Assembly (NCBI GenBank): GCA_028707535.1
Contig: JAQWAU010000004.1
Span: forward strand, 46,129-79,293
DNA: 33,165 bases
Direction: 5' to 3'
Source of the DNA: Heliobacteriaceae bacterium
GTDB taxonomy: Bacteria; Bacillota; Desulfitobacteriia; Heliobacteriales; Heliobacteriaceae
Numbering within the stretch: position 1 is the stretch's first letter; every line of letters starts with the position of its first letter. This document shows, in pieces, positions 6,207 through 24,760 of this stretch. A program made the translations under genes and the position numbers. The notes beneath the pieces are model-generated. The model was not told the origin of the DNA. It was given only the letters and a program-made list of their open reading frames with translations, and made no database searches.

Positions 6207-6400
6207 TGACGAATGTAATTAAGATTACGTCGATAAAAGGGGTAAAGCTGCCCCTGGATGACGCAAAGCACCGAATGGTGGTTTTCAGAAATGCCTGAAT
6301 ATTTCGGAAAGGGCAAAATATTAGCAAAGTTCTATCTGCCCGGTGCAAACTCTTGGTGTGCTGATTAGCCAAAAAGAGAATTAGGAGGTTGATTAACAAC
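6207..6400 (+). other. Leader region of cooS with several small hairpins
   Basis: This 194-bp gap holds a chain of possible stems: AGGGG/CCCCT (6238-6255), CACC-GAAT-GGTG (6269-6280), TTCAG/CTGAA (6284-6299) and GGGCA/TGCCC (6311-6341). The motif GACGCAAAGC at 6260-6269 recalls cyclic-di-GMP-I riboswitches, but the rest of that consensus is absent. An AGGAGG ribosome site at 6383-6388 precedes ATG 6401. It may be an untranslated regulatory leader; no known class is assigned. Confidence 0.4.
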
Positions 6401-8422
6401 ATGCCCAGATTTCGAGACACCCAAATGGGCTCTAAACCGTCGGGCGCACCCAGAGTGGTAGAACCCAAAAACGTGGTTCGCATGGTCGATGAAGCGGGGA
6501 TAGGTGCCTTGAACCGGGCCCGGGAGTTGGGGATTTGTACCGTATTTGACCGTTTCGTGGCCCAACAGCCCCAGTGCGGGTTTGGTTATAAAGGCATTTG
6601 TTGCCGGATTTGTATTGCCGGGCCCTGTCGGATCAAGGCCGGTGACGGCCCTGGTTCCCGGGGGATTTGCGGGGCTACGGCTTATACGATTGTCGCCCGG
6701 TATATTGCCCGTTTGATTGCTGGTGGGGCAGCTTCCCATTCTGACCACGGCCGGCATCTTGCTTACGTCTTAAGCAAGGTAGCCGCTGGTAACCTCGCCG
6801 ATTACCAGGTGACCGATCCGGCGAAGCTGGTGTGGTTGGCCGGGCGGCTTGGCCTGGATCCTACGGGGAAGGACCACTTAACCTTGGCGGCGGAAGTCGC
6901 CCGGACAGCGTTGAACGATTTCAGCAAGCACGATGAAGAGCCGTGCCTGTTTTTAGATTCGACGATTACGGCCGCCCGGCGCCGGAAGTTTGACCAGACC
7001 AACATTTACCCGCGGGCGATCGACCGGGAAGTGGTCAATGTTTTGGCGGGGACGACGATGGGCATGGATGCCGATCCGGTAAACATCATTTTTCAAGGGT
7101 TACGCACCGCTTTGGCAGACTATACGGGTATGCAGATTTCTACCGATCTTAGCGATGTTTTGTTTGGTACCCCGCAGCCGGTGGTGTCTGAGGCCAACTT
7201 AGGAGTATTAGATCCCCAACAAGTGAATATCGCTGTCCATGGCCACAATCCCCTGGTTTCCCTGATGTTGGTTGAGGCGGCCCGGAAACTGAAAACCGAA
7301 GCGGTGGCAGTTGGGGCATCCGGGATTAATCTGGTTGGCATTTGTTGCACCGGTAACGAAATGTTAATGCGGGCAGGGGTCAAAATGGCTGCTAACGTGG
7401 CTTCTCAAGAGTTGGTCCTGATGACCGGGGTGGTAGATGCCATGGTGGTAGATGTGCAGTGTATTATGTCTTCACTGCCGGTAATCTGTAATTGTTTCCA
7501 TACGAAGATGTTTACCACCAACTGGGTGGCTAAGATTCCCGGTGCCGAACATATGGCTTTTAACGAAGCTACTGCCCAAGCAGATGCCGAGCATATGATC
7601 CGTGAGGCGATCCACGCTTTTAAGAACCGGGACCGGGAAAAGGTTACTCTTTTTGAGATTAAAAACCAGGTCGTTGCCGGATTTTCCTTGGAGGCCCTAT
7701 ATGGATTGTTCGGGGCGATTGATCCGGAAACCCCGGTTAAAGTGTTAACTGACGCCATTTTGGCGGGCAAGATTAAAGGGGTTTGCTTGTTTGCCGGCTG
7801 TAACAACCTGAAATCTTTCCAAGATGCCAGCCATTTGGGCATTGTTAAGGAGTTGGCTAAAAATGACGTCTTTTTGGTGGCAACCGGGTGTTCCGCCGGG
7901 GCTTTTGCCAAGGCCGGGTTGCTCAATGCAGCCGCCGTTGAGGCTTATGCCGGGCCGGGGCTCAAGGCCTTCCTCAAGGAGCTGGAAATAGCCAACCAAG
8001 GTAAACTCGAGGCCGGGTTACCCTTGATTTTTCATATGGGGTCCTGTGTGGATAACGTCAGGGCGATGAATTTATGTACGGATATGGCAAACCAGCTTGG
8101 CGTCGATGTGCCGAAAGTTCCTTTTGTGGCTTCAGCGCCGGAAGCAATGCATGAAAAAGCGGTGGCGATCGGTTCCTGGGGTGTGGCTATGGGTCTGCCT
8201 GTCCACGTTGGCGCAATGCCTCCCATTGAAGGTAGTGAATTGGTTTACGGGCTGACAACGCAAATTGCCGCAGATGTTTTCGGCGGGCACTTTATCTTCG
8301 AGATGGATGACCAGGTAGCAAGTGAAAAATTGCTGGCTGCTTTGGAGTACCGAACCTGGAAGTTGGGGGTCCATCACCAGATGAAGGAAAAGTATGCCAC
8401 GGCGTTGTATCAAGGTTATTAG
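6401..8422 (+). CDS. cooS: Anaerobic carbon monoxide dehydrogenase catalytic subunit
   Basis: Ni-Fe CO dehydrogenase that interconverts CO and CO2, the carbonyl branch of the Wood-Ljungdahl pathway; paired with acsB it is the AcsA-type beta subunit. The 673 residues match the family. The D/B cluster cysteines are at 59, 67, 68, 71, 76 and 90 with exactly the spacing of Carboxydothermus CooS. C-cluster ligand motifs follow in order: AVHGHNP (His), GICCTGNEM, VDVQCIMS, FAGCNNLK, ATGCSAGAF and HMGSCVDNVRA. ATG 6401 is preferred over a TTG at 6389 that abuts the AGGAGG site with no spacing. acsB starts 18 bp downstream. No cooC or cooF accessory gene is next to it. Confidence 0.97.
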   Translation: MPRFRDTQMGSKPSGAPRVVEPKNVVRMVDEAGIGALNRARELGICTVFDRFVAQQPQCGFGYKGICCRICIAGPCRIKAGDGPGSRGICGATAYTIVARYIARLIAGGAASHSDHGRHLAYVLSKVAAGNLADYQVTDPAKLVWLAGRLGLDPTGKDHLTLAAEVARTALNDFSKHDEEPCLFLDSTITAARRRKFDQTNIYPRAIDREVVNVLAGTTMGMDADPVNIIFQGLRTALADYTGMQISTDLSDVLFGTPQPVVSEANLGVLDPQQVNIAVHGHNPLVSLMLVEAARKLKTEAVAVGASGINLVGICCTGNEMLMRAGVKMAANVASQELVLMTGVVDAMVVDVQCIMSSLPVICNCFHTKMFTTNWVAKIPGAEHMAFNEATAQADAEHMIREAIHAFKNRDREKVTLFEIKNQVVAGFSLEALYGLFGAIDPETPVKVLTDAILAGKIKGVCLFAGCNNLKSFQDASHLGIVKELAKNDVFLVATGCSAGAFAKAGLLNAAAVEAYAGPGLKAFLKELEIANQGKLEAGLPLIFHMGSCVDNVRAMNLCTDMANQLGVDVPKVPFVASAPEAMHEKAVAIGSWGVAMGLPVHVGAMPPIEGSELVYGLTTQIAADVFGGHFIFEMDDQVASEKLLAALEYRTWKLGVHHQMKEKYATALYQGY

Positions 8423-8440
8423 GTGGGAGGATTAGTGCCG

Positions 8441-10630
8441 ATGAGTGCCTTGAATTTCGATAAATTATTTTTAGGGGCGATTCCCGAAGGGGAGACCGGC
8501 CCGGTAGGGCTTTTCCAAAAGGGTTATAATGGTGCGGTGATGGCCGTTTCCTATGCAGAGATCCTCCTGAATCGGGCGTTAGCCAAATCCGGTCCGGAGC
8601 AACCGGTCAGTTACCCGAATACCGGTTATTTTCTTCCTGTTTTTATGGCTTTGTCCGGGGAGCAGATCACTAAGCTGGGAGAGATTCCAACAGCCTTAAA
8701 CCGGATGCGGGCCCAGGTGAAGCCGGTTTTCACTTTTGAACAGGCCCGGCTGAACGGGGAGGCGACTTTGTACGCCGCCGAGGTAATCGAAATTATCAAT
8801 TATCTGGAAGGAAACAACCCGCAAGCGGAACCCTGGACCGGTTTTCTTGAGGATCCTGTTTTCCGGCAATACGGGATCAAGATGGTGGACTGGACGATCC
8901 CCGGGGTGGCGATCATTATTGGCCGGGCCAAGGATAGCAAGTTGGCGGCCAAGATTGTCGGCAGCTTGATGAGCCAAGGGATGATGCTCTTTTTGTGTGA
9001 CGAAATTGTGGAGCAGCTTTTGGAAGAGAATGTTAAGCTGGGTGTCGATTACATCGCTTTTCCGGTCGGGAACTTTACTCAGGTGGTCCATGCCGTAAAC
9101 TACGCCCTGCGGGCGGGGATGGCATTCGGGGGGATTGCCCCCGGGGCCCGGGAAGAGGCTCGCGACTACCAGCGCCGGCGGGTAATGGCCTTTGTTTTGC
9201 ACCTGGGTGAACTGGATGATGTTAAGGTGGCGGCCGAATTCGGCGCGATCTTTTTGGGGTTTCCCGTGCTAACCGACCAGGAGCTCGGGCCTGAACTGGA
9301 ATTACCGGACTGGTATGTCTCTCATCCGAATTACGAAACTATTGTCCGTGATGCTCTGGAACTACGGGGGGTCAAGCTCACCGCGATTGAAGTCGATATT
9401 CCGGTGAACTTCGGGCCGGCGTTTGAAGGGGAGACCGTCCGGAAAAAAGACACCTATGTTGAATTTGGCGGTGGTCACTCGCCGGCTTTTGAGCTGGTGC
9501 GCTCTATTGGTTCTGAAGAGATCGAGGATGGCCGGATTACGGTGGTTGGGCCAACCCTGGATCAAATGCAGGAAGGGGAAAAGCATCCTTTAGGGATCAT
9601 GGTTGACATTTATGGCCGGAAAATGCAGGTGGATTTTGAACCGGTGCTGGAGCGACGGATCCATTATTTTGCCAACTACGCCGAAGGGCTTTGGCATGTT
9701 GCCCAGCGGGACCTGTGTTGGGTGCGGATCGCCAAAGAAGCTCAGGCTAAAGGGTTTCAACTTGAGGACATCGGGAAAATTTTGATTGCTAAATACAAAG
9801 CGGATTTCCCCTCCATTGTTGACCGGGTGCAAGTGACTATTTTGACCGACGAGCGGGCAGTGGCCGAAAATATCCAACTTGCCCGGCAGTATTACCGGGA
9901 ACGGGACGACCGGATGCGTGGTCTTACCGATGAAGCCGTCGAAGAGTTTTATTCCTGTATTTTGTGCCAGTCTTTTGCTCCCAATCATGTCTGTGTGGTT
10001 ACCCCGGAGCGAGTGGGCTTATGTGGGGCGGTAACCTGGCTGGATGCTAAGGCATCTTACCAAATTAATGCGCTTGGCCCGAATCGGATCATCGAGAAAG
10101 GTCCGGCTCTCGATGCGGAAAAAGGCAGTTGGCAGACGGTTAACGATTATGTAGCGGTAACCTCCAACGGGGCGATGGAGGAGGTCTGCTTATACACTTT
10201 GAACGAGGCGCCAATGACTTCCTGCGGCTGTTTCGAGGCGATTATGTGTATCGTGCCCGAAGCAAACGGTGTCTGCGTTACTACCCGGGAGCATGCCGGC
10301 ATGACGCCGGTAGGGATGAGTTTTTCTACCCTGGCGGGGATGATTGGCGGCGGGGTGCAGACCCCGGGTTTTATGGGTATTGGTAAGTCCTTCGTTGTAT
10401 CCCGGAAGTTTATTCCGGCCGATGGGGGGCTGGCCCGGATCGTCTGGATGCCCAAAGCCTTGAAGGAATTCTTGCGGAATGACTTTGTTGCCCGGTCGCA
10501 GGAGGAAAACCTCGGGGAAGATTTTATCGACAAGATTGCTGATGAAACGATCGGCATATCGATTGACGAAATCCTGCCTTTTTTGGAAGAGAAAGAACAC
10601 CCGGCCCTGAATATGGATTCCATCCTTTAA
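8441..10630 (+). CDS. acsB: Acetyl-CoA synthase catalytic subunit (CODH/ACS alpha)
   Basis: Joins CO, a methyl group from the corrinoid protein and CoA into acetyl-CoA at the Ni-Ni-[4Fe-4S] A-cluster. From ATG 8441 the protein has 729 residues and the A-cluster ligands fall at Cys506, Cys509, Cys518, Cys528 and Cys595-Gly-Cys597, the same numbers as in Moorella ACS; this supports the start over GTG 8423 or GTG 8435. GGGAGG lies 10 bp upstream. Motifs visible are SCILCQSFAPNHVC, GLCGAVTWLDAKAS and MTSCGCFEAI. The corrinoid protein genes (acsC/acsD), methyltransferase acsE and nickel-insertion ATPase are not in the window, so the rest of the pathway must lie elsewhere if it is present. A bidirectional terminator follows. 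Confidence 0.97.
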   Translation: MSALNFDKLFLGAIPEGETGPVGLFQKGYNGAVMAVSYAEILLNRALAKSGPEQPVSYPNTGYFLPVFMALSGEQITKLGEIPTALNRMRAQVKPVFTFEQARLNGEATLYAAEVIEIINYLEGNNPQAEPWTGFLEDPVFRQYGIKMVDWTIPGVAIIIGRAKDSKLAAKIVGSLMSQGMMLFLCDEIVEQLLEENVKLGVDYIAFPVGNFTQVVHAVNYALRAGMAFGGIAPGAREEARDYQRRRVMAFVLHLGELDDVKVAAEFGAIFLGFPVLTDQELGPELELPDWYVSHPNYETIVRDALELRGVKLTAIEVDIPVNFGPAFEGETVRKKDTYVEFGGGHSPAFELVRSIGSEEIEDGRITVVGPTLDQMQEGEKHPLGIMVDIYGRKMQVDFEPVLERRIHYFANYAEGLWHVAQRDLCWVRIAKEAQAKGFQLEDIGKILIAKYKADFPSIVDRVQVTILTDERAVAENIQLARQYYRERDDRMRGLTDEAVEEFYSCILCQSFAPNHVCVVTPERVGLCGAVTWLDAKASYQINALGPNRIIEKGPALDAEKGSWQTVNDYVAVTSNGAMEEVCLYTLNEAPMTSCGCFEAIMCIVPEANGVCVTTREHAGMTPVGMSFSTLAGMIGGGVQTPGFMGIGKSFVVSRKFIPADGGLARIVWMPKALKEFLRNDFVARSQEENLGEDFIDKIADETIGISIDEILPFLEEKEHPALNMDSIL

Positions 10631-14981: not shown

Positions 14982-15253
14982 CTACGGGGATAACTTATGA
15001 GCAAGCAGTAGCGCGTTTGGAAGAAGTGATCCGGCAACTTGAAGCGGGTGAACCTACCCTGGACGAATCATTACAGTTGTTTGAAGAAGGCATTGGACTG
15101 GTTCGTTCATGTCATCGCCAGCTTGACGCATACGAAGCCAAGGTACAGATGTTAATTGATACCCTGGAGGGCATACAGGTTGAAGATACCCAGGTGGCTG
15201 AAGAGATGATTGTTCCCGAAGCGCTGTTTTGCGCGGAGGGGGGCAAAGGATGA
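14963..15253 (+). CDS. xseB: Exodeoxyribonuclease VII small subunit
   Basis: Small helical subunit that coats the XseA stalk. The 96 residues contain the family signature: YEQAVARLEEVIRQLEAGE, LDESLQLFEEGIGLVR and CHRQLDAYEAKVQML. The C-terminal 20 residues extend beyond the conserved core and look unstructured. GTG 14963 follows a strong AGGAGG; an in-frame ATG at 14996 would remove the conserved N-terminus. It overlaps xseA at its start and ispA at its stop (ATGA), so all three genes form one translationally coupled set. Confidence 0.95.
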   Translation: MDKDRITTGITYEQAVARLEEVIRQLEAGEPTLDESLQLFEEGIGLVRSCHRQLDAYEAKVQMLIDTLEGIQVEDTQVAEEMIVPEALFCAEGGKG

Positions 15254-16140
15254 ACCTGAAAGTCGAATTAAAGACTTTAGCTGCCCGGGTCGACGCGGAA
15301 TTGGTCAGGTGGTTACTGCCGGCAGATGCTTTTCCGCCGGTAATTCACCAAGCGATGCAGTATAGTGTCTTTGCCGGTGGAAAACGGTTGCGGCCGGTGT
15401 TGGCCCTGGCTGCCTGCCAGGCAGTTGGCGGGGAAGAAAGCCGGGTAATGCCGGCTGCTTGTGCTTTGGAGATGGTTCATGCCTATTCATTGATTCATGA
15501 TGACTTGCCGGCTTTAGATGATGATGATTTCCGGCGGGGGCAACCGACAAACCACCGGGTATACGGGGAAGCATTCGCCATTTTAGCGGGAGATGCTTTG
15601 TTGACCCGGGTTTTTGAGATCTTGGCGATCGCCGGTGCCCGGAATAAAGAACAGGCTGCCCTTTATTTGCAGGTGATCCATGAATTAGCTGGGGCTGCGG
15701 GCACCTTAGGGATGATCGGGGGCCAGGTGGTTGACCTGGAGTCCGAGCAAAAAGAAGTTGACCTGGCAACCCTTGAATACATACACCAGCATAAAACTGG
15801 AGCCTTGATTCGGGCTTCACTGCGCACCGGGGCCTTGTTAGGGGGTGGTACCCCGGCGCAGGTGACCGCTTTATCCTGTTATGGGGATAGTTTGGGGTTG
15901 GCTTTCCAGATTACCGATGATTTGTTGGATGTCCAAGGTGATCCGGCTAAACTCGGAAAGCCGGTCGGTAGTGATGCGAAAAACCGCAAGGCCACTTATC
16001 CGGCGTTAATTGGCTTGAAAAAAGCAAAAGAGGCCGCAGCAGAGGCTGTTGAAGCCGCTTTGGCCTGTCTTACCGGATTCGGTACCGAAGCCGATTTTTT
16101 GCGGGCGTTGGCCCGTTACTTGTTAGTACGGGAAAACTGA
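15250..16140 (+). CDS. ispA: Farnesyl/geranyl diphosphate synthase (polyprenyl synthetase)
   Basis: Condenses IPP with DMAPP/GPP to give farnesyl diphosphate, precursor of undecaprenyl carriers and quinones. Its 296 residues contain GGKRLRPVL, the first Asp-rich motif in HDDLPALDDDDFRRGQ, GDALLT, GQVVDLESE, and the second Asp-rich motif in ITDDLLDVQGD. ATG 15250 overlaps the xseB stop and is preceded by AAAGG. In other Firmicutes ispA leads into dxs; here an opposing gene overlaps its last 25 bp and separates it from OLE/oapA/dxs by about 3.3 kb. Confidence 0.96.
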   Translation: MNLKVELKTLAARVDAELVRWLLPADAFPPVIHQAMQYSVFAGGKRLRPVLALAACQAVGGEESRVMPAACALEMVHAYSLIHDDLPALDDDDFRRGQPTNHRVYGEAFAILAGDALLTRVFEILAIAGARNKEQAALYLQVIHELAGAAGTLGMIGGQVVDLESEQKEVDLATLEYIHQHKTGALIRASLRTGALLGGGTPAQVTALSCYGDSLGLAFQITDDLLDVQGDPAKLGKPVGSDAKNRKATYPALIGLKKAKEAAAEAVEAALACLTGFGTEADFLRALARYLLVREN

Positions 16141-17951
16141 GCCGACGTAAGCGGGCAACCTGGATGGAAAACGAAAGCGGTTTCTTGCCCGAGGTAGATG
16201 ATGTCACCATCTTGCAGGTAATAAGGGGCATTTAACCGGCTATTCTGCGGTGAGGCTAAAAAGGTGCCGTTGGTCGACCCTTTGTCGGTAATAATGATCG
16301 TAGCAGGGTCAAACGCGTCTGGCCCGAGGTAGGCATGTTGTTTGGAAATGACCGGGGCCGGGATCACCAGTTGACAAGTCCCGGTATCACGCCCGATTAA
16401 AAACCCTTCCGGGGGGATTGTGAAGGTTTTACCGGCGAGTGGACCGGCCAGAAATTCGATGGTCGGTTCCGCCACAGTGGTAGCGATGGTTGTTGCAACC
16501 TCTTCCGAAGCACTGGTCATCGGCGCCGGTACCGGTGTAGCAATAACAGGAGTAACCGGTTCGGGTGCTGGTTCAACGGGTGGGGCAGGGGGACTAAGGT
16601 CAAAATGCCACCTGGCTATCGGTTTTGGTTCCGGTGGTATTTGGCGTCGCTGCCGACGCCGGTAAAACCATAATCCGGCAAAGCCGGCCGGAGCAAGAAC
16701 CGCAGGGATCATGAAAATCAGGTAGTCGGGCCAATAGATGCGGTCATCCCCTGCTTTTTGGCGGTGGCGGGCTTCGGTCAGTAATTGTTGGGCGTAAACA
16801 TGGTTTGGATTAGTGGCCAGGAAATCTTCCAGCAAAGCCACCGTTTTGCTGACATACCCCTGGTTAAACATTGCCAGAGTATCGGCGTAAAGGCGGGTGG
16901 CTTGCGAAGTCTGATCAGCGGCCTGGGCCTGAACTAAGGCTTCCCGGATAGCCTGGGTGGTGATCAAGGGATAGATCCCGGTTCCTTTTGCCGTGGGCCC
17001 AGCCAATCCTACTACTTTGTTACCGGCGATCACCGGCCCCCCGGCGGCAGCCGGAGCCAAAGGGGCCGCAAGATCGGTGGTGGGTCCGTACGGAGATTCG
17101 TTCTTGCCGGATGTGGCAGGCGACAGTTTGCCGGTAATGATGGTGGCTTCGGTAACCAATGGTGAGGAAAGCAAGGCGGTTGCCTCCGCATTGCCGGCAA
17201 AACCGATAACCGTGGCCTCTTCAGAGACATCACCATTGGTGAGCGGGCTCAGACGTATTGCGGGCAGATTATCGCCTGGGATCTTGATTACCGCCACCTC
17301 TTGAACCGGGTCAAACCTAGGGCCGGTGGGGTTGGTGGTACCAAGGCGGCTGGTTGACCGGGAAGGAGGATTGCGGCTAATCAAGGCCAGGGTGGTACTT
17401 TGGGTATCAGCCGGAACCGGATTTTCCGGTAAAAGGATTTCGGGGGTAGGGGTACCGATCCAGGCAATTTCAAAATCGACTGCTGTACCACCGGGAAGAA
17501 CTACTTCCCGGTAGTATTTTACATCGGTTAGTAAAGTGGTATGTTCGGCAATATAGATCCGTTCGCTTTCAGCAAGACGGTGGCCGATTTGCTTCTGAAC
17601 ATCGGTAAAAAATCGCTCGATTAAGGCGGTCCGGAGGGCATCCCGATCCCGGGTGAGCAATTCTAAGGTCCGGGCGGCGGTAACCGTCGTACCATTCGGG
17701 TTTACTACCAGCCCGGAAGCAGTGCCACCGACGGCAACCGGCCAAGCCTGGTTATTGAACCGGAATGTCGCCGTGGCACCGGCCCGGACTTGGACAACAG
17801 CTGGTTTGACTAGGTTCACACCGGTAATACCGGCTGGTAACTGTTCCGTTGCTGCCGGAAGGACCGGTGGGAAAACCAGGAAAGCGAAAAATACACCGAC
17901 CAGGAACGGAAGGAGCCGGAACGAAATGAAAAAACGGCTACCACCGATCAA
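16116..17951 (-). CDS. Membrane protein with catalytically dead HtrA-like protease domain and cytoplasmic FHA domain
   Basis: A 611-residue protein of unusual build. An N-terminal signal or anchor helix (about 12-35) is followed by an extracytoplasmic trypsin-like domain (about 42-340) in which all three catalytic positions appear replaced: TAART (Arg94 for His), QEVAVIKI (Glu218 for Asp) and AAAGGPV (Ala303 for Ser). Next come TPR-like helices (about 350-400), a membrane helix (409-430), a Pro/Ala/Thr-rich linker (438-495) and an FHA domain (497-597) with GRD, SKQHA and KGSTNGTF, the phosphothreonine-binding residues. It starts at TTG 17951, 7 bp after AGGAGG. It lies opposite its neighbours, overlaps ispA by 25 bp and sits between ispA and the OLE RNA. 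Probably a scaffold or sensor coupled to Ser/Thr phosphorylation; function inferred only. Confidence 0.82.
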   Translation of the reverse strand: MIGGSRFFISFRLLPFLVGVFFAFLVFPPVLPAATEQLPAGITGVNLVKPAVVQVRAGATATFRFNNQAWPVAVGGTASGLVVNPNGTTVTAARTLELLTRDRDALRTALIERFFTDVQKQIGHRLAESERIYIAEHTTLLTDVKYYREVVLPGGTAVDFEIAWIGTPTPEILLPENPVPADTQSTTLALISRNPPSRSTSRLGTTNPTGPRFDPVQEVAVIKIPGDNLPAIRLSPLTNGDVSEEATVIGFAGNAEATALLSSPLVTEATIITGKLSPATSGKNESPYGPTTDLAAPLAPAAAGGPVIAGNKVVGLAGPTAKGTGIYPLITTQAIREALVQAQAADQTSQATRLYADTLAMFNQGYVSKTVALLEDFLATNPNHVYAQQLLTEARHRQKAGDDRIYWPDYLIFMIPAVLAPAGFAGLWFYRRRQRRQIPPEPKPIARWHFDLSPPAPPVEPAPEPVTPVIATPVPAPMTSASEEVATTIATTVAEPTIEFLAGPLAGKTFTIPPEGFLIGRDTGTCQLVIPAPVISKQHAYLGPDAFDPATIIITDKGSTNGTFLASPQNSRLNAPYYLQDGDIIYLGQETAFVFHPGCPLTSAQFSRTNK

Positions 17952-18066
17952 CGTGATACCTCCTTAAAAGGCGGGGTTAAACAACTTTGTCTTTTCGACA
18001 TCAGCTGGTATTTTTCCTTTGTTTACGAGGAAGATTTCCGGGGTGGCCGGGGAACCGGGCTCTTTC

Positions 18067-18095
18067 TTGAAGGATCCGATTTCAAATGCTATAAT
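18067..18095 (+). promoter_or_regulatory. Extended -10 promoter for OLE RNA
   Basis: TTGAAG (18067-18072), a 17-bp spacer and a perfect TATAAT (18090-18095) preceded by TG at 18087-18088, giving an extended -10. It predicts a start near 18102, three bases before the 5' strand of the RNA-closing helix. Confidence 0.85.
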
Positions 18096-18101
18096 CAAGG
18101 G

Positions 18102-18720
18102 TAATGTCTGAAGACGGTGGCGCAGTATTCTAGTCAGGACCACCCGCTTTGAAGGCGGGCCTAAAAATCCGCCGAGGGCACATCGATGAAGTTCCTGGTG
18201 CTGGCTGCCGACGCCCAGTTGGGGGTTGGTGCTGGGAGTTAAGGAGGATGGGGCGATCCGCAATGGCATGCGGGCGTTGACCCCGCTTCCGTGGAGACCC
18301 AAGTGCGTGGGGAAGACCAGTTTTAACAGGCGAGAACTACGGCTTGGGTAAGGAACCTGCAATTCGGTACATGCTGGGTGCAGTGTAGCCTGCCTTGAGT
18401 GGGGTTGGCGGATATGAGGCTAACGAGTCTTTATCCCCGGCCAGGGAAAGAGATTCTCGCGAATTGAAACCAATTCTGCAAAAGAGGCTAGGGGCGGGCT
18501 GGCCTGTAGAAGAAAATTCCTAGACTGTTCATTAATTGAGGTCCGTTGAGGATTAAAGTGTGGACTAAGTGGTGATCCGGTTCGGTTGCCGGTAACGGAG
18601 CCGTTCCCGGCATAAAGGGAAACCGCCGGTAGGGCAACCTGTCGGTGCCGGGTAGGGAAAACCTACCGGACCTAAGCCATAACGTTTACTTGGCGGGCTG
18701 CCACCGACAGACATTCTCTT
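18102..18720 (+). ncRNA. ole: OLE RNA (ornate large extremophilic RNA)
   Basis: Large structured non-coding RNA known from anaerobic and extremophilic Firmicutes; it forms a membrane complex with OapA and has been tied to cold, alcohol and magnesium stress in Bacillus halodurans. Seen here: no plausible gene for about 650 bp, a strong promoter at the 5' end, and terminal pairing of TGTCTG (18105-18110) with CAGACA (18708-18713) and CGGTGGC (18115-18121) with GCCACCG (18700-18706), closing a 609-nt domain, the expected size. Internal stems include CCCGC/GCGGG (18143-18159), CTTCC/GGAAG (18286-18315), GGTAGG-GAAAA-CCTACC (18651-18667) and a possible long-range pair GGCTTGGG (18341-18348) with CCTAAGCC (18671-18678). 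The setting ispA...OLE-oapA-dxs is diagnostic. No terminator separates it from oapA. I identified it from context and structure, not by alignment. Confidence 0.88.
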
Positions 18721-18748
18721 GCGGCAAGGCTGTTTGAGGTGAAAATAT

Positions 18749-19375
18749 TTGGGTAAAAAAGGAAAGAGCTTACGACAAGCGACTCGGCACGCTACGCTGA
18801 TCAGTATTATTACGTTTATGCTTGCAATGGGGATCAGCGTGGGTTCCGAGTTTTTTTTGAGCCGAATTTTTTCGATTGCGCTTTCCTTTGGGCTTCTGTT
18901 TATCTTGATCCTGATCGGGGTCCTTTTTGATGTTATCGGGATTGCGGCGACGGCAGCCACAGAGAAACCGTTTCACGCGAAAGCAGCAAAAAAAGTAACT
19001 GGGGCCGTACAAGCCTTGTGGTTAGTTAGAAACGCCGACCGGGTTGCCAATTTCTGCAATGATGTGGTTGGGGACATCTGTGCGGCGGCTTCGGGTGCTG
19101 TTGGGGCGACAATTGCCTTGCGGCTGACGCAGTTTTTTGGGACAGAGACTTTTTTCTGGGGTATTGTGATGACTGGTTTTGTAGCCGCGTTTACTGTAGG
19201 CGGCAAGGCCTTCGGCAAATCATTGGCAATAAGGCGTTGTCACGAAATTATTTTTCTGGTTGCCGGGTGGGTGGCCCAGGTAGAGACCATATTGGGGTGG
19301 CAATTGTTTCAGATTAAGCGAAATAAAGTAACAGAACCAAAAAATGGCGCATCGGGTAAGCCATCCCGGGGATAA
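18749..19375 (+). CDS. oapA: OLE-associated membrane protein OapA
   Basis: Membrane partner that binds OLE RNA and holds it at the inner face of the cell membrane. The 208 residues start with a basic tail (MGKKGKSLRQATRH), followed by hydrophobic segments near 15-34, 41-68, 110-128, 135-152 and perhaps 166-184, and end in a polar basic tail. A DxxxD motif (DVVGD, residues 105-109) at the edge of a membrane segment matches the motif reported for OapA; loops rich in Lys, Arg and His (75-100) could contact RNA. Start TTG 18749, 7 bp after GAGGTG, about 35 bp after the RNA-closing helix. It is probably co-transcribed with OLE upstream and dxs 46 bp downstream. Its biochemical activity is unknown. 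Confidence 0.87.
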   Translation: MGKKGKSLRQATRHATLISIITFMLAMGISVGSEFFLSRIFSIALSFGLLFILILIGVLFDVIGIAATAATEKPFHAKAAKKVTGAVQALWLVRNADRVANFCNDVVGDICAAASGAVGATIALRLTQFFGTETFFWGIVMTGFVAAFTVGGKAFGKSLAIRRCHEIIFLVAGWVAQVETILGWQLFQIKRNKVTEPKNGASGKPSRG

Positions 19376-19421
19376 CGGATGGTTTCTCGCTTTACCGGAA
19401 AAGAAGAGGTGACCTTGCGGT

Positions 19422-21371
19422 ATGAGCCATATACTCAGCCGAACCCGGTGTCCGGCTGACTTGCAGCAATTAACCGGAAACGAATTAAAACAATTGGCCG
19501 CCGAAATCCGGGATGTGTTAATCCGGACGACGGCGAAAAATGGGGGTCACTTGGCCCCAAATCTAGGGGTTGTGGAGTTGACCTTGGCTTTACATCTGGT
19601 GTTTTCTACGCCTTTAGACAAGATCGTCTGGGATGTTGGGCACCAGTCCTATGTGCACAAGTTATTAACTGGACGCCAAGATAATTTTTCCTCATTGCGG
19701 TCTTACCGCGGTATGGCTGGTTTTCCTAAACGGGCGGAAAGCATTCACGATGCCTTTGGTACCGGTCATAGTTCTACCTCCATTTCGGCGGCGACCGGCT
19801 TGGCTTTTGCTAGGGACCTGAAAAAGGAGCCAGGTGCCGTAGTAGCGGTTATTGGTGACGGCGCCATGACCGGTGGGATGGCGTTTGAAGCGTTAAACTA
19901 TGCCGGTCAAGCGGAGACCGACTTGATTGTGGTACTCAATGATAATGAGATGTCAATTGCCAACAATGTCGGCGGTTTGGCTACTTACCTTACCCGCATG
20001 CGCACTGATCCCCGGTATTTCCGGGGTAAGGAAGACATCGAAGAACTGGTTAAACGGACTCCTATTGGGCCACAGGTATTAAAGGTGCTGGAAAGATTAA
20101 AAGATGGCTTAAAACAATTGGTTGTTCCCGGAATGTTGTTTGAGGAGCTAGGTTTCACCTACCTTGGCCCGATTGACGGACATAACTTACCGGAACTCCG
20201 GCAGGTGTTTACCAATGCCCGTCGGATCAAGGGGCCGGTTTTGGTCCATGTATTGACCAAAAAAGGCAAGGGGTATCAGCCGGCAGAGGAAAATCCGGAT
20301 GTGTTTCATGGGGTTGGTGCTTTTGATATCCCAACCGGAAAGCCTTTGCCGAAAAATGGTGCACCAGCCTATACCAAGGTTTTTAGCGATGCTTTGATCG
20401 AATTGGCCGGCCGGGATGACCGGATTATCGGGATTACGGCAGCCATGCCGGATGGGACGGGAATGACTCCTTTTAGCCAGGCTTTTCCGGGCCGGTTTTT
20501 TGACGTCGGCATCGCTGAACAACATGCGGTGACCATGGCGGCGGCCTTAGCACTGCAAGGATTCCGGCCGGTGGTGGCAATTTACTCGACGTTTTTGCAG
20601 CGGGCCTATGATCAGGTTTTACATGATGTTTGCCTCCAAAAGGCTCCGGTTGTATTTGCGATTGACCGGGCCGGCCTGGTAGGGGAGGATGGGGAAACCC
20701 ATCAAGGGCTGTTTGATTTTTCATTTTTACGCCACATTCCGGGAATTGTATTAATGGCCCCGAAGGACGAGAATGAGCTACGGCACATGCTTTGTACTGC
20801 GCTCAATCATCCCGGACCGATTGCTTTGCGCTATCCGCGCGGGGCCGGCTTAGGAGTAACCTTGGATCCGGTTTTGCAGGAACTGCCGATTGGCAAAGCG
20901 GAGTACTTGCGGCAAGGACGGGATCTGGCGATCTTGGCCATCGGCAATATGGTGCAGCCCGCCTTGACAGCGGCGGAAAAACTGGCTGAAAATGGCGTTC
21001 AGGCGGCGGTTGTCAATGTACGGTTTGTCAAACCCTTGGACGAGGAGTTAATTTTGGACCTGGCGGCTAAAACCGGGCGTCTAATCACTGTGGAAGAAAA
21101 TATGTTGGCCGGAGGGTTCGGTGGGGCGGTGTTGGAGTTGTTGAGTGGGCATACTGTTAATTGCCAAGTGAAACGGCTCGGAATTCCGGACATTTTTGTC
21201 CCGCACGGAGCGACTGGGATCTTACGGGATGTGTACGGGCTGACCGCAGACCATATCGCCCAGGCTGCCGGCGAATTGTTGACTGAAGGCAAAGCGCCGA
21301 ATAAGTGGGGGCGTAAAGGGAAAGGACCTTTAGCGGCCGTAAAAATCGTTTTTCGCGGGGATGCCGGCTAG
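19422..21371 (+). CDS. dxs: 1-deoxy-D-xylulose-5-phosphate synthase
   Basis: Thiamine-diphosphate enzyme joining pyruvate and glyceraldehyde 3-phosphate, first step of the MEP isoprenoid pathway. The protein has 649 residues, slightly longer than usual because of a basic C-terminal tail. Seen are [26 protein letters not shown], the ThDP motif [15 protein letters not shown]...NDNEMSI, the transketolase Pyr domain with [10 protein letters not shown], and [18 protein letters not shown] 19422 follows GAGGTGA. It works in the same pathway as ispA upstream, and tlyA begins on the base after its stop. Confidence 0.97.
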
Positions 21372-23645: not shown

Positions 23646-24308
23646 ATGAATTCGATGAATTCTGCGGTTAGCTGGGCGCAAAAAATGCTGGCGGAAGTTA
23701 TTTCTCCGGGCAGTTTTGTTATTGATGCCACAGCCGGGAACGGTAACGATACCCTTTTCCTGGCAAATAGGGTCCTTCCCAGTGGTTTGGTTTGGGCAGT
23801 AGATATTCAGCCGGCCGCCATTGCCGCTACCGAGGGCCGGCTCCGCCAGGCCAACATCAAGCGCATTCGTAAAGTGGTTAATGGGTCGGTAGACGAGACT
23901 TGCCTGGTTGGGGATGAAGTAATTTTATTGCAGCGTGATCACGGGGATTTAGGGCCTTTGATGGCTTTGACCAATAGGTTGCGGCCTGCCTTGGCGGCAG
24001 CGGTTTTAAACCTTGGTTATTTGCCTGGTGGTGACCATAGTGTGATCACTGGTTCCGTTTCGACAATTTGTGCTTTGAACACTTTGGCGGCTGAACTAAC
24101 GGGCGGTGGAAGATTGGTTGTTGTTGTCTATACAGGCCACCCCGGGGCAAGCGCCGAGGTAAGGGCGGTTAGTGGTTGGTGGCAGGCTTTGCCGCCCCAG
24201 AATTGGGATGCGGTAAGCATTGGTTTTCCCAACCGGTCGTCCTCACCACCGGTAGTTTTTGTGGCGGAAAAAAAATTAAGCGGGCGAAGGCGGGTGCCCT
24301 TGGCATGA
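23646..24308 (+). CDS. mnmM: tRNA 5-aminomethyl-2-thiouridine methyltransferase (YtqB/MnmM family)
   Basis: SAM methyltransferase of the YtqB family; Bacillus YtqB (MnmM) adds the methyl group in mnm5s2U34 of tRNA. The 220 residues show motif I in VIDATAGNGNDTLFLA, VWAVDIQPAAIAAT, the family's NLGYLPGGDHS catalytic-region motif and VVVVYTGHPGA with a downstream Trp-rich segment. ATG 23646 is 5 bp after GGGGAGG; ATG 23655 is an alternative. It overlaps argR by ATGA. The family is clear; the exact tRNA reaction is inferred from the Bacillus enzyme. Confidence 0.88.
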   Translation: MNSMNSAVSWAQKMLAEVISPGSFVIDATAGNGNDTLFLANRVLPSGLVWAVDIQPAAIAATEGRLRQANIKRIRKVVNGSVDETCLVGDEVILLQRDHGDLGPLMALTNRLRPALAAAVLNLGYLPGGDHSVITGSVSTICALNTLAAELTGGGRLVVVVYTGHPGASAEVRAVSGWWQALPPQNWDAVSIGFPNRSSSPPVVFVAEKKLSGRRRVPLA

Positions 24309-24760
24309 AAAGCAAAAGGCAGCGGGCTATCCTAGACATTATTCAGCATCAGGTCATCGGTACACAGGAAGAACTGGCCCAAGCATTACGGGAACGGGGA
24401 ATAGAGGTTACACAAGCAACAATTTCCCGGGACATTAAGGAGCTTGGTTTGGTCAAGGTGCCAGTAAGCAAGGAGGAATCCAGGTATGCCGCTCCTGGTG
24501 ACCCGCCGCCTTTGCCTGCTTCCGACCGGTTACGGCGTTTATTACGGGATACGGTGAGCAGCGTCGAATATAGCCTGAACATTGTAGTTGTAAAAACGCT
24601 GCCGGGGCATGCCCATGCAGTTGCTGCGGCAATCGACGGCAGTCAATGGCCGGAAGTGATCGGCACGGTTGCCGGTGATGATACAATTGTTATCGTTGTT
24701 AAACCGTTTGAAGTGGTAACGGATCTGGTGGCCAAGATTTCCGGCTGGCTAAATGATTAA
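24305..24760 (+). CDS. argR: Arginine repressor ArgR/AhrC
   Basis: Arginine-dependent hexameric regulator of arginine synthesis and breakdown. The 151 residues have the winged-helix N-terminal domain (KSKRQRAILDIIQ, TQEELAQALRERGIEVTQAT, then SRDIKELGLVKV) and the C-terminal oligomerisation/arginine-binding domain with LPGHAHAVAAAID and GTVAGDDTIVIV, where the GDD aspartates bind arginine. ATG 24305 overlaps the mnmM stop; a longer frame from 24176 would overlap mnmM deeply. recN follows, the usual Firmicute neighbour. No arginine genes are in the window. Confidence 0.96.
   Translation: MKSKRQRAILDIIQHQVIGTQEELAQALRERGIEVTQATISRDIKELGLVKVPVSKEESRYAAPGDPPPLPASDRLRRLLRDTVSSVEYSLNIVVVKTLPGHAHAVAAAIDGSQWPEVIGTVAGDDTIVIVVKPFEVVTDLVAKISGWLND

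Follow-up and report, generated by a model that had tools for sequence, protein, structure and literature searches.

A very probable OLE ribonucleoprotein locus in a member of the Heliobacteriaceae, and the joint absence of ole and oapA from six of its relatives

Background

The OLE RNAs are among the largest structured RNAs of bacteria. The closest described systems are those of Halalkalibacterium halodurans and other Bacillota (Rfam family RF01071), in which ole is followed directly by oapA, the gene for OLE-associated membrane protein A, with dxs beyond it and ispA upstream. A single polycistronic RNA is reported for the H. halodurans cluster, and the published model of the RNA names two helices P1 and P2 (PMC12265935). 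Cryo-EM work describes dimers of the OLE RNA that are joined by the A-rich loop L4, by L5.1 with L6.1 and by the palindromic L9 (PMC12286853, PMC12265935). A relation between OapA and the CNNM proteins has already been published by Fernando and Breaker (PMC11332333). An anticorrelation of MpfA and OLE has also been published, with more paralogues in genomes that lack OLE.

Here we describe an OLE locus in a draft genome of the Heliobacteriaceae (87.62% complete, 2.93% contamination), within a stretch of 33,165 nucleotides that we refer to as the window. Among the literature matches listed, the term OLE RNA was not found together with heliobacter or Heliorestis, and the main text of PMC11332333 is without the word heliobacter; these organisms may be among the 2,822 genomes that it covers. 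OLE is common: of 299 genomes sampled from the phylum 217 have it, as do 44 of the 82 genomes of the class, and the locus therefore adds a further member to a class already known. A preliminary description of the region had valued it as a new natural context for OLE, which is weakly supported, as the order ispA-ole-oapA-dxs is the usual setting. The window copy alone adds little; the part worth keeping is the comparison within the family, where three genomes with OLE and six without it have the flanking genes in common and offer a close natural comparison.

Results and discussion

A complete OLE RNA with its closing helices and dimer loops

A scan with the Rfam models gave a single match in the whole window, the OLE model RF01071, which was aligned from end to end (positions 1-616 of 616) at 525.1 bits and E 2e-151, with a gathering score of 50. 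This also exceeds the 390 bits of the full-length class in PMC11332333, a comparison that is indicative only since the model used there was another one. An alignment of the window OLE with 30 RNAs from the 59 other OLE loci (A2, 31 sequences) has 250 columns conserved at 93% or more among those 30, and the window OLE is identical at every one of them. Judged by its sequence, the copy is complete, well conserved and typical of its class.

In the Rfam structure, 143 of 159 base pairs are standard in the window OLE. Seven of the 16 non-standard pairs lie in helix 5 and five in helices 10-11, and these helices are poorly kept throughout the set (72.8% of cells paired for helix 5, 70.3% and 41.8% for helices 10 and 11). 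Across the complete set of 31, paired cells make up 87.0% compared with 73.8% for shuffled and 39.6-47.8% for slid partners, and the covariation score is 0.445 compared with 0.195 after shuffling; the pairs evaluated are those of the Rfam model fitted to the window OLE, which biases these values somewhat in favour of the structure. Homology and covariation establish both the identity and the structure of the RNA.

The preliminary description had proposed an OLE RNA whose ends pair in two helices to close a domain of 609 nt, and these claims agree with the covariance-model match and with the pairings themselves. Helix P1 is a perfect 6 bp helix in the window, or 8 bp when extended, and the stretch that it closes (18105-18713) is 609 nt long. 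The seven positions of P2 are paired in 28, 31, 31, 31, 31, 29 and 30 of the 31 sequences, with compensatory changes. Both helices are absent from the Rfam structure line. When the two ends are matched with each other, the longest helix measures 6.6 bp on average for true pairs and 5.6 bp for ends swapped between genomes, and none of 300 swaps reached the mean of the true pairs.

The window OLE also has the sequence elements for the L4, L5.1/L6.1 and L9 contacts of the published dimer (Table 1). At the L9 stretch, all 31 sequences have either GGCC or AGCT. The varying pair between L5.1 and L6.1 was counted in the 59 of 60 loci with both loops readable (L036 was left out) and is A-U in 44 and C-G in 4, with the positions unpaired in the other 11 (six A-A, five A-C), so that the L5.1 position is paired with L6.1 in 48 of 59; all four loci with C in L5.1 carry G in L6.1.

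Table 1. Features of the OLE locus and its neighbours, in window positions
Feature	Position	Strand	Basis
ispA, farnesyl diphosphate synthase, neighbour	15229..16140	+	NF045485 above cut-off
protease-FHA gene (trypsin-like protease with FHA domain), 611 aa, neighbour outside the ribonucleoprotein	16116..17951	-	PF00498, PF13365
Predicted sigma-A type promoter of ole, TTGAAG-17 nt-TATAAT	18067..18095	+	Consensus scan, 10 of 12 matches
OLE RNA gene (ole), full length	18101..18720	+	RF01071; 250/250 conserved columns; covariation over 31 sequences
P1 5' arm	18105..18110	+	Perfect complement of 18708-18713
P2 5' arm	18115..18121	+	Pairs with 18700-18706; compensatory changes
L4 AAAAA, A-A bridge in the published dimer (PMC12286853)	18163..18167	+	Invariant in 31/31
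L5.1 GCCCA, kissing with L6.1 of the second RNA in the published dimer	18213..18217	+	
L6.1 AUGGCA, kissing partner of L5.1	18263..18268	+	
L9 GGCC palindrome, symmetric kissing loop of the published dimer	18439..18442	+	
P2 3' arm	18700..18706	+	Pairs with 18115-18121
P1 3' arm	18708..18713	+	Perfect complement of 18105-18110
oapA ribosome binding site GAGGTG	18736..18741	+	Read from sequence
oapA, OLE-associated membrane protein A, 208 aa, TTG start	18749..19375	+	Alignment A1; AlphaFold2; Foldseek
DVVGD codons (DxxxD, residues 105-109)	19061..19075	+	D105, G108 and D109 invariant in 32/32
dxs, 1-deoxy-D-xylulose-5-phosphate synthase, neighbour	19422..21371	+	TIGR00204 above cut-off

Promoter and gene order

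The RNA had been credited with a promoter of its own, and a site of this kind is found upstream of ole (Table 1). It ends five bases before the OLE match and has a TG before its second hexamer, and the RNA would start near 18101-18105. Two promoter-like sites were found in 17800-19600 where shuffled sequences gave an expectation of 0.9. Of 33 loci of the window's kind (L001, which is the window, to L035, without L004 and L007, which are cut by contig ends), 27 have a similar site in a 77-base interval around the start of ole, and the remaining six have none. For loci of two other families of the class (L036-L060) the count is 12 of 25, which gives 39 of 58 for both kinds together, or 32 of 58 under a stricter rule for position. 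Control windows further upstream contained such sites in 11 of 232 cases (4.7%); these windows are probably largely coding, so that the contrast with the ole starts would be flattered.

The same scan of 17800-19600 gave three terminator-like sites, with 2.7 expected, all of them inside oapA and none between ole and oapA. Because such a site is absent between them, the two genes are probably read together. The preliminary description had placed the pair between ispA and dxs, and ole does lie in that interval; the placement overlooks, however, a reversed gene for a 611-aa protein that divides ispA from ole. This gene, which encodes a trypsin-like protease with an FHA domain, sets the window apart from H. 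halodurans and other Bacillota; in full length, conserved nucleotides, P1/P2, dimer loops and the genes of the neighbourhood the window is like them. With the reversed gene lying between ispA and ole, transcription of ole most likely depends on the promoter directly upstream of it.

OapA and its likeness to CNNM proteins

For the open reading frame downstream of ole, Pfam and NCBIfam yielded matches below threshold only and no OapA family, and OapA was therefore identified by alignment. The protein shares 35-56% identity with its counterparts next to ole at 31 other loci (alignment A1, taken from 34 such loci after three near-duplicates were dropped), and the closest named OapA is that of Heliorestis acidaminivorans. 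Eleven residues are invariant in the alignment (S33, D61, G85, V99, D105, G108, D109, G116, G152, K153 and K157). This comparison, made with ole-adjacent proteins other than the H. halodurans OapA, upholds the earlier assignment of the 208-residue protein, and on the alignment the open reading frame is OapA. The small basic protein with a DVVGD motif that had been noticed directly after the RNA is also as described, with 23 K+R and 10 D+E when counted by eye. It shares with known OapA proteins its size and charge, long hydrophobic helices, the DxxxD motif, a place beside ole and a predicted CNNM-like fold. It has no notable difference from them; it does start with TTG, and automatic start choice gave TTG for several relatives too.

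The AlphaFold2 model of the monomer (pLDDT 88.4) consists of long helices. Its five best Foldseek matches among solved structures are all CNNM proteins (CNNM/CorB/CorC), with a best E of 4.3e-3, so that none reaches 0.001, and TM-scores of 0.43-0.49 on the query, and the core fold is predicted to be like that of the CNNM transmembrane domain of MpfA and CorB. Sequences of the PDB, searched with an OapA profile, gave no match up to E 1. The likeness of fold, with a Pfam match to CNNM (PF01595) at E 0.004 and 17.3 bits, would suit an alternative in which the protein is a Mg2+ exporter of the CNNM/MpfA type that acts alone, beside an RNA that is there incidentally. We regard this as very improbable. 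The Pfam score is below the cut-off of 28.4 bits, and Pfam lists no CBS or CorC domain for the 208-residue protein, as would be seen in MpfA/CorB. A profile comparison with CNNM covered 26 columns only (E 0.08, probability 0.7%) and put G156 of OapA at the conserved CNNM proline; this alignment is weak because the CNNM side consists of five domains that are at least 90% alike. Furthermore, OLE and OapA occur together even where their genes are unlinked, as described below. The reading that we prefer is that the protein is the OapA partner of OLE, with the relation to CNNM proteins already published; its membrane location, its dimer and its binding to OLE would follow by likeness to described OapA.

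Distribution and linkage of OLE and OapA

Loci L002-L035 are not a fair sample: 30 of them are those with the highest scores in the phylum sample, and the other four come in pairs from the window's family and from a related one. Among them oapA lies beside ole in 34 of 34 and dxs beyond it in 31 of 34, and the protease-FHA gene is found in none of the 34. The arrangement is different in the two other families of the class (L036-L060), in which oapA was found within 1.5 kb of ole in none of 25 loci and ispA, dxs, tlyA and xseB were likewise absent within that distance in all 25. The OLE RNAs of these 25 loci are shorter and score lower (576-592 nt, 401-439 bits). In two of six such loci that were inspected for open reading frames, a small protein of some 85 aa with a single hydrophobic segment is encoded upstream of ole, and the two proteins are similar (L041:1072-1329 and L049:558-818).

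These families were considered as cases of OLE without OapA and rejected as such, since oapA is encoded elsewhere in 24 of the 25 genomes, the exception being G344, which is 76% complete. In the ten genomes of these families with both genes on one contig (G124, G155, G181, G206, G255, G305, G308, G309, G351 and G352), the distance between ole and oapA is at least 61 kb. Across the 82 genomes of the class, 42 have both OLE and OapA, 36 have neither and four have only one (Fisher p 2e-18, in a test that ignores shared ancestry). OLE alone occurs in G344 and G347 (76% and 83% complete) and OapA alone in G348 and G354 (86% and 95% complete), and the last two represent either missing contigs or real exceptions.

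The distribution also bears on whether the region could be a long leader or riboswitch for oapA and dxs rather than an independent RNA, a possibility less probable still than that of the solitary exporter. The region does lie just ahead of both genes in the same orientation, and no terminator-like site separates it from oapA; yet the OLE model is matched along its whole length, the 25 unlinked loci have no oapA, ispA, dxs, tlyA or xseB within 1.5 kb, and OLE and oapA still co-occur across the class.

A putative ribonucleoprotein particle

Genes for OapB and OapC are present in the window's genome. The OapB homologue (PDB 7k9b, 'OLE-associated protein B', E 2.4e-12) is encoded at 6949-7245 of locus L225, in the map-infA interval (both flanking genes identified by eye). 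The Pfam KOW model was discarded as a finder of OapB in this genome, where it returned two other proteins only; the map-infA position revealed the gene. A protein of 87 aa of the L7Ae family is encoded between genes read as rpoC and rpsL, an interval which we take to be the place of YbxF/OapC. This assignment of YbxF by gene position applies to the window's genome only.

Taken with the RNA, its promoter, OapA and the co-occurrence across the class, these genes make it very probable that the window holds a working OLE ribonucleoprotein locus. RNA polymerase would start at the promoter upstream of ole and transcribe ole and then oapA, and an RNA of about 610-620 nt would adopt the OLE structure with P1 and P2 closing it. 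Two copies would be joined through L4, L5.1/L6.1 and L9, a dimer of OapA, as a CNNM-like membrane protein with a DxxxD motif, would anchor the RNA at the membrane, and OapB and OapC would bind to it from genes elsewhere in the genome. By analogy with H. halodurans, the particle may aid survival under stress (cold, alcohols, Mg2+, poor carbon sources). The least probable reading is that of a decayed remnant, alike in sequence with its function gone, for which the 16 non-standard pairs and the relatives without ole may be cited and against which stand the intact conserved columns, the promoter, the open oapA frame, the OapB and OapC genes and the preserved dimer loops.

Joint absence of ole and oapA in the Heliobacteriaceae

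OLE was found in three of nine genomes of the family, that of the window and two of one genus (Heliorestis type). The six OLE-negative genomes are 96-99% complete, and OapA is likewise absent from all six. At their corresponding loci (L246-L251) the reversed protease-FHA gene adjoins dxs in six of six, with ole and oapA missing between the two. The window is like these loci in having the protease-FHA gene and dxs; ispA lies next to them in five of the six, and for the sixth, G301, the 14 kb covered showed no ispA. Two loci of the Heliorestis type (L252-L253) and two of the related family have the order ispA-ole-oapA-dxs, and the window has ispA, the reversed protease-FHA gene, ole, oapA and dxs in succession (16116-19375 from the reversed gene to the end of oapA). 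Orthologues of the protease-FHA gene were found in the window's genome and its six OLE-negative relatives, with no match in the two Heliorestis-type genomes; class-wide, 52 of 82 genomes gave matches in all, those elsewhere being far weaker and nearly all to the FHA part alone.

The OLE-negative loci look like the result of removing ole and oapA together, and some relatives appear to have lost the two in this way. From an arrangement such as that of the window, with both the protease-FHA gene and the ole-oapA pair, they could be derived by one deletion. Trees place the window's genome either with Heliorestis (support 47.6/38) or with the OLE-negative genera (90.9/71), so that there may have been one loss or two.

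OapB was found in eight of the nine family genomes and two L7Ae-family proteins in each of the nine. On these assignments OapB persists in the family without OLE, and OapC probably does so too, in agreement with published work. The map-infA interval of G050 (locus L231) is without OapB, which the other eight members have at that place.

The family, in which RNA and protein are absent together, allows a test of the published proposal that MpfA takes the place of OLE. Across the class, 29 of the 44 genomes with OLE and 29 of the 38 without it have CNNM proteins above the cut-off (Fisher p 0.34), and the number of copies, counted by eye with OapA matches excluded, is 34 compared with 52, a direction that agrees with the published one. 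The Heliobacteriaceae show the opposite direction, with CNNM in two of three OLE-positive and none of six OLE-negative genomes, although these genomes are few and related. CNNM proteins occur in both genomes of the Heliorestis type and not in that of the window, and the six OLE-negative genomes gave no CNNM match at E 0.001. This absence does not fit a simple replacement of OLE by MpfA, and compensation by MpfA in the Heliobacteriaceae is unsupported. We tentatively suggest, as a possibility that we hold to be somewhat doubtful, that the heliobacterial ole and oapA were lost as one unit with no gain of CNNM/MpfA, and that their selective role was other than Mg2+ export. If so, the role of OLE in the family is perhaps linked to lifestyle, with the RNA kept in Heliorestis and in the window's genome and absent from six other phototrophs. 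Heliorestis convoluta is termed alkaliphilic (PMC7143216).

Other features of the window's genome

BchL, of bacteriochlorophyll synthesis, is above the cut-off in all eight relatives; the best match in the window's genome (G000) has 25.4 bits and is below it. This organism may be a non-phototroph of a phototrophic family, or BchL may be missing from the incomplete draft. Two large adjacent open reading frames at 6389-10630 of the window presumably encode carbon monoxide dehydrogenase and an acetyl-CoA synthase subunit, which they resemble. The same cluster as ole includes what we take to be an argR-like gene (24308-24760), and ArgR has been mentioned, from unpublished data, as a possible partner of OLE (PMC12265935).
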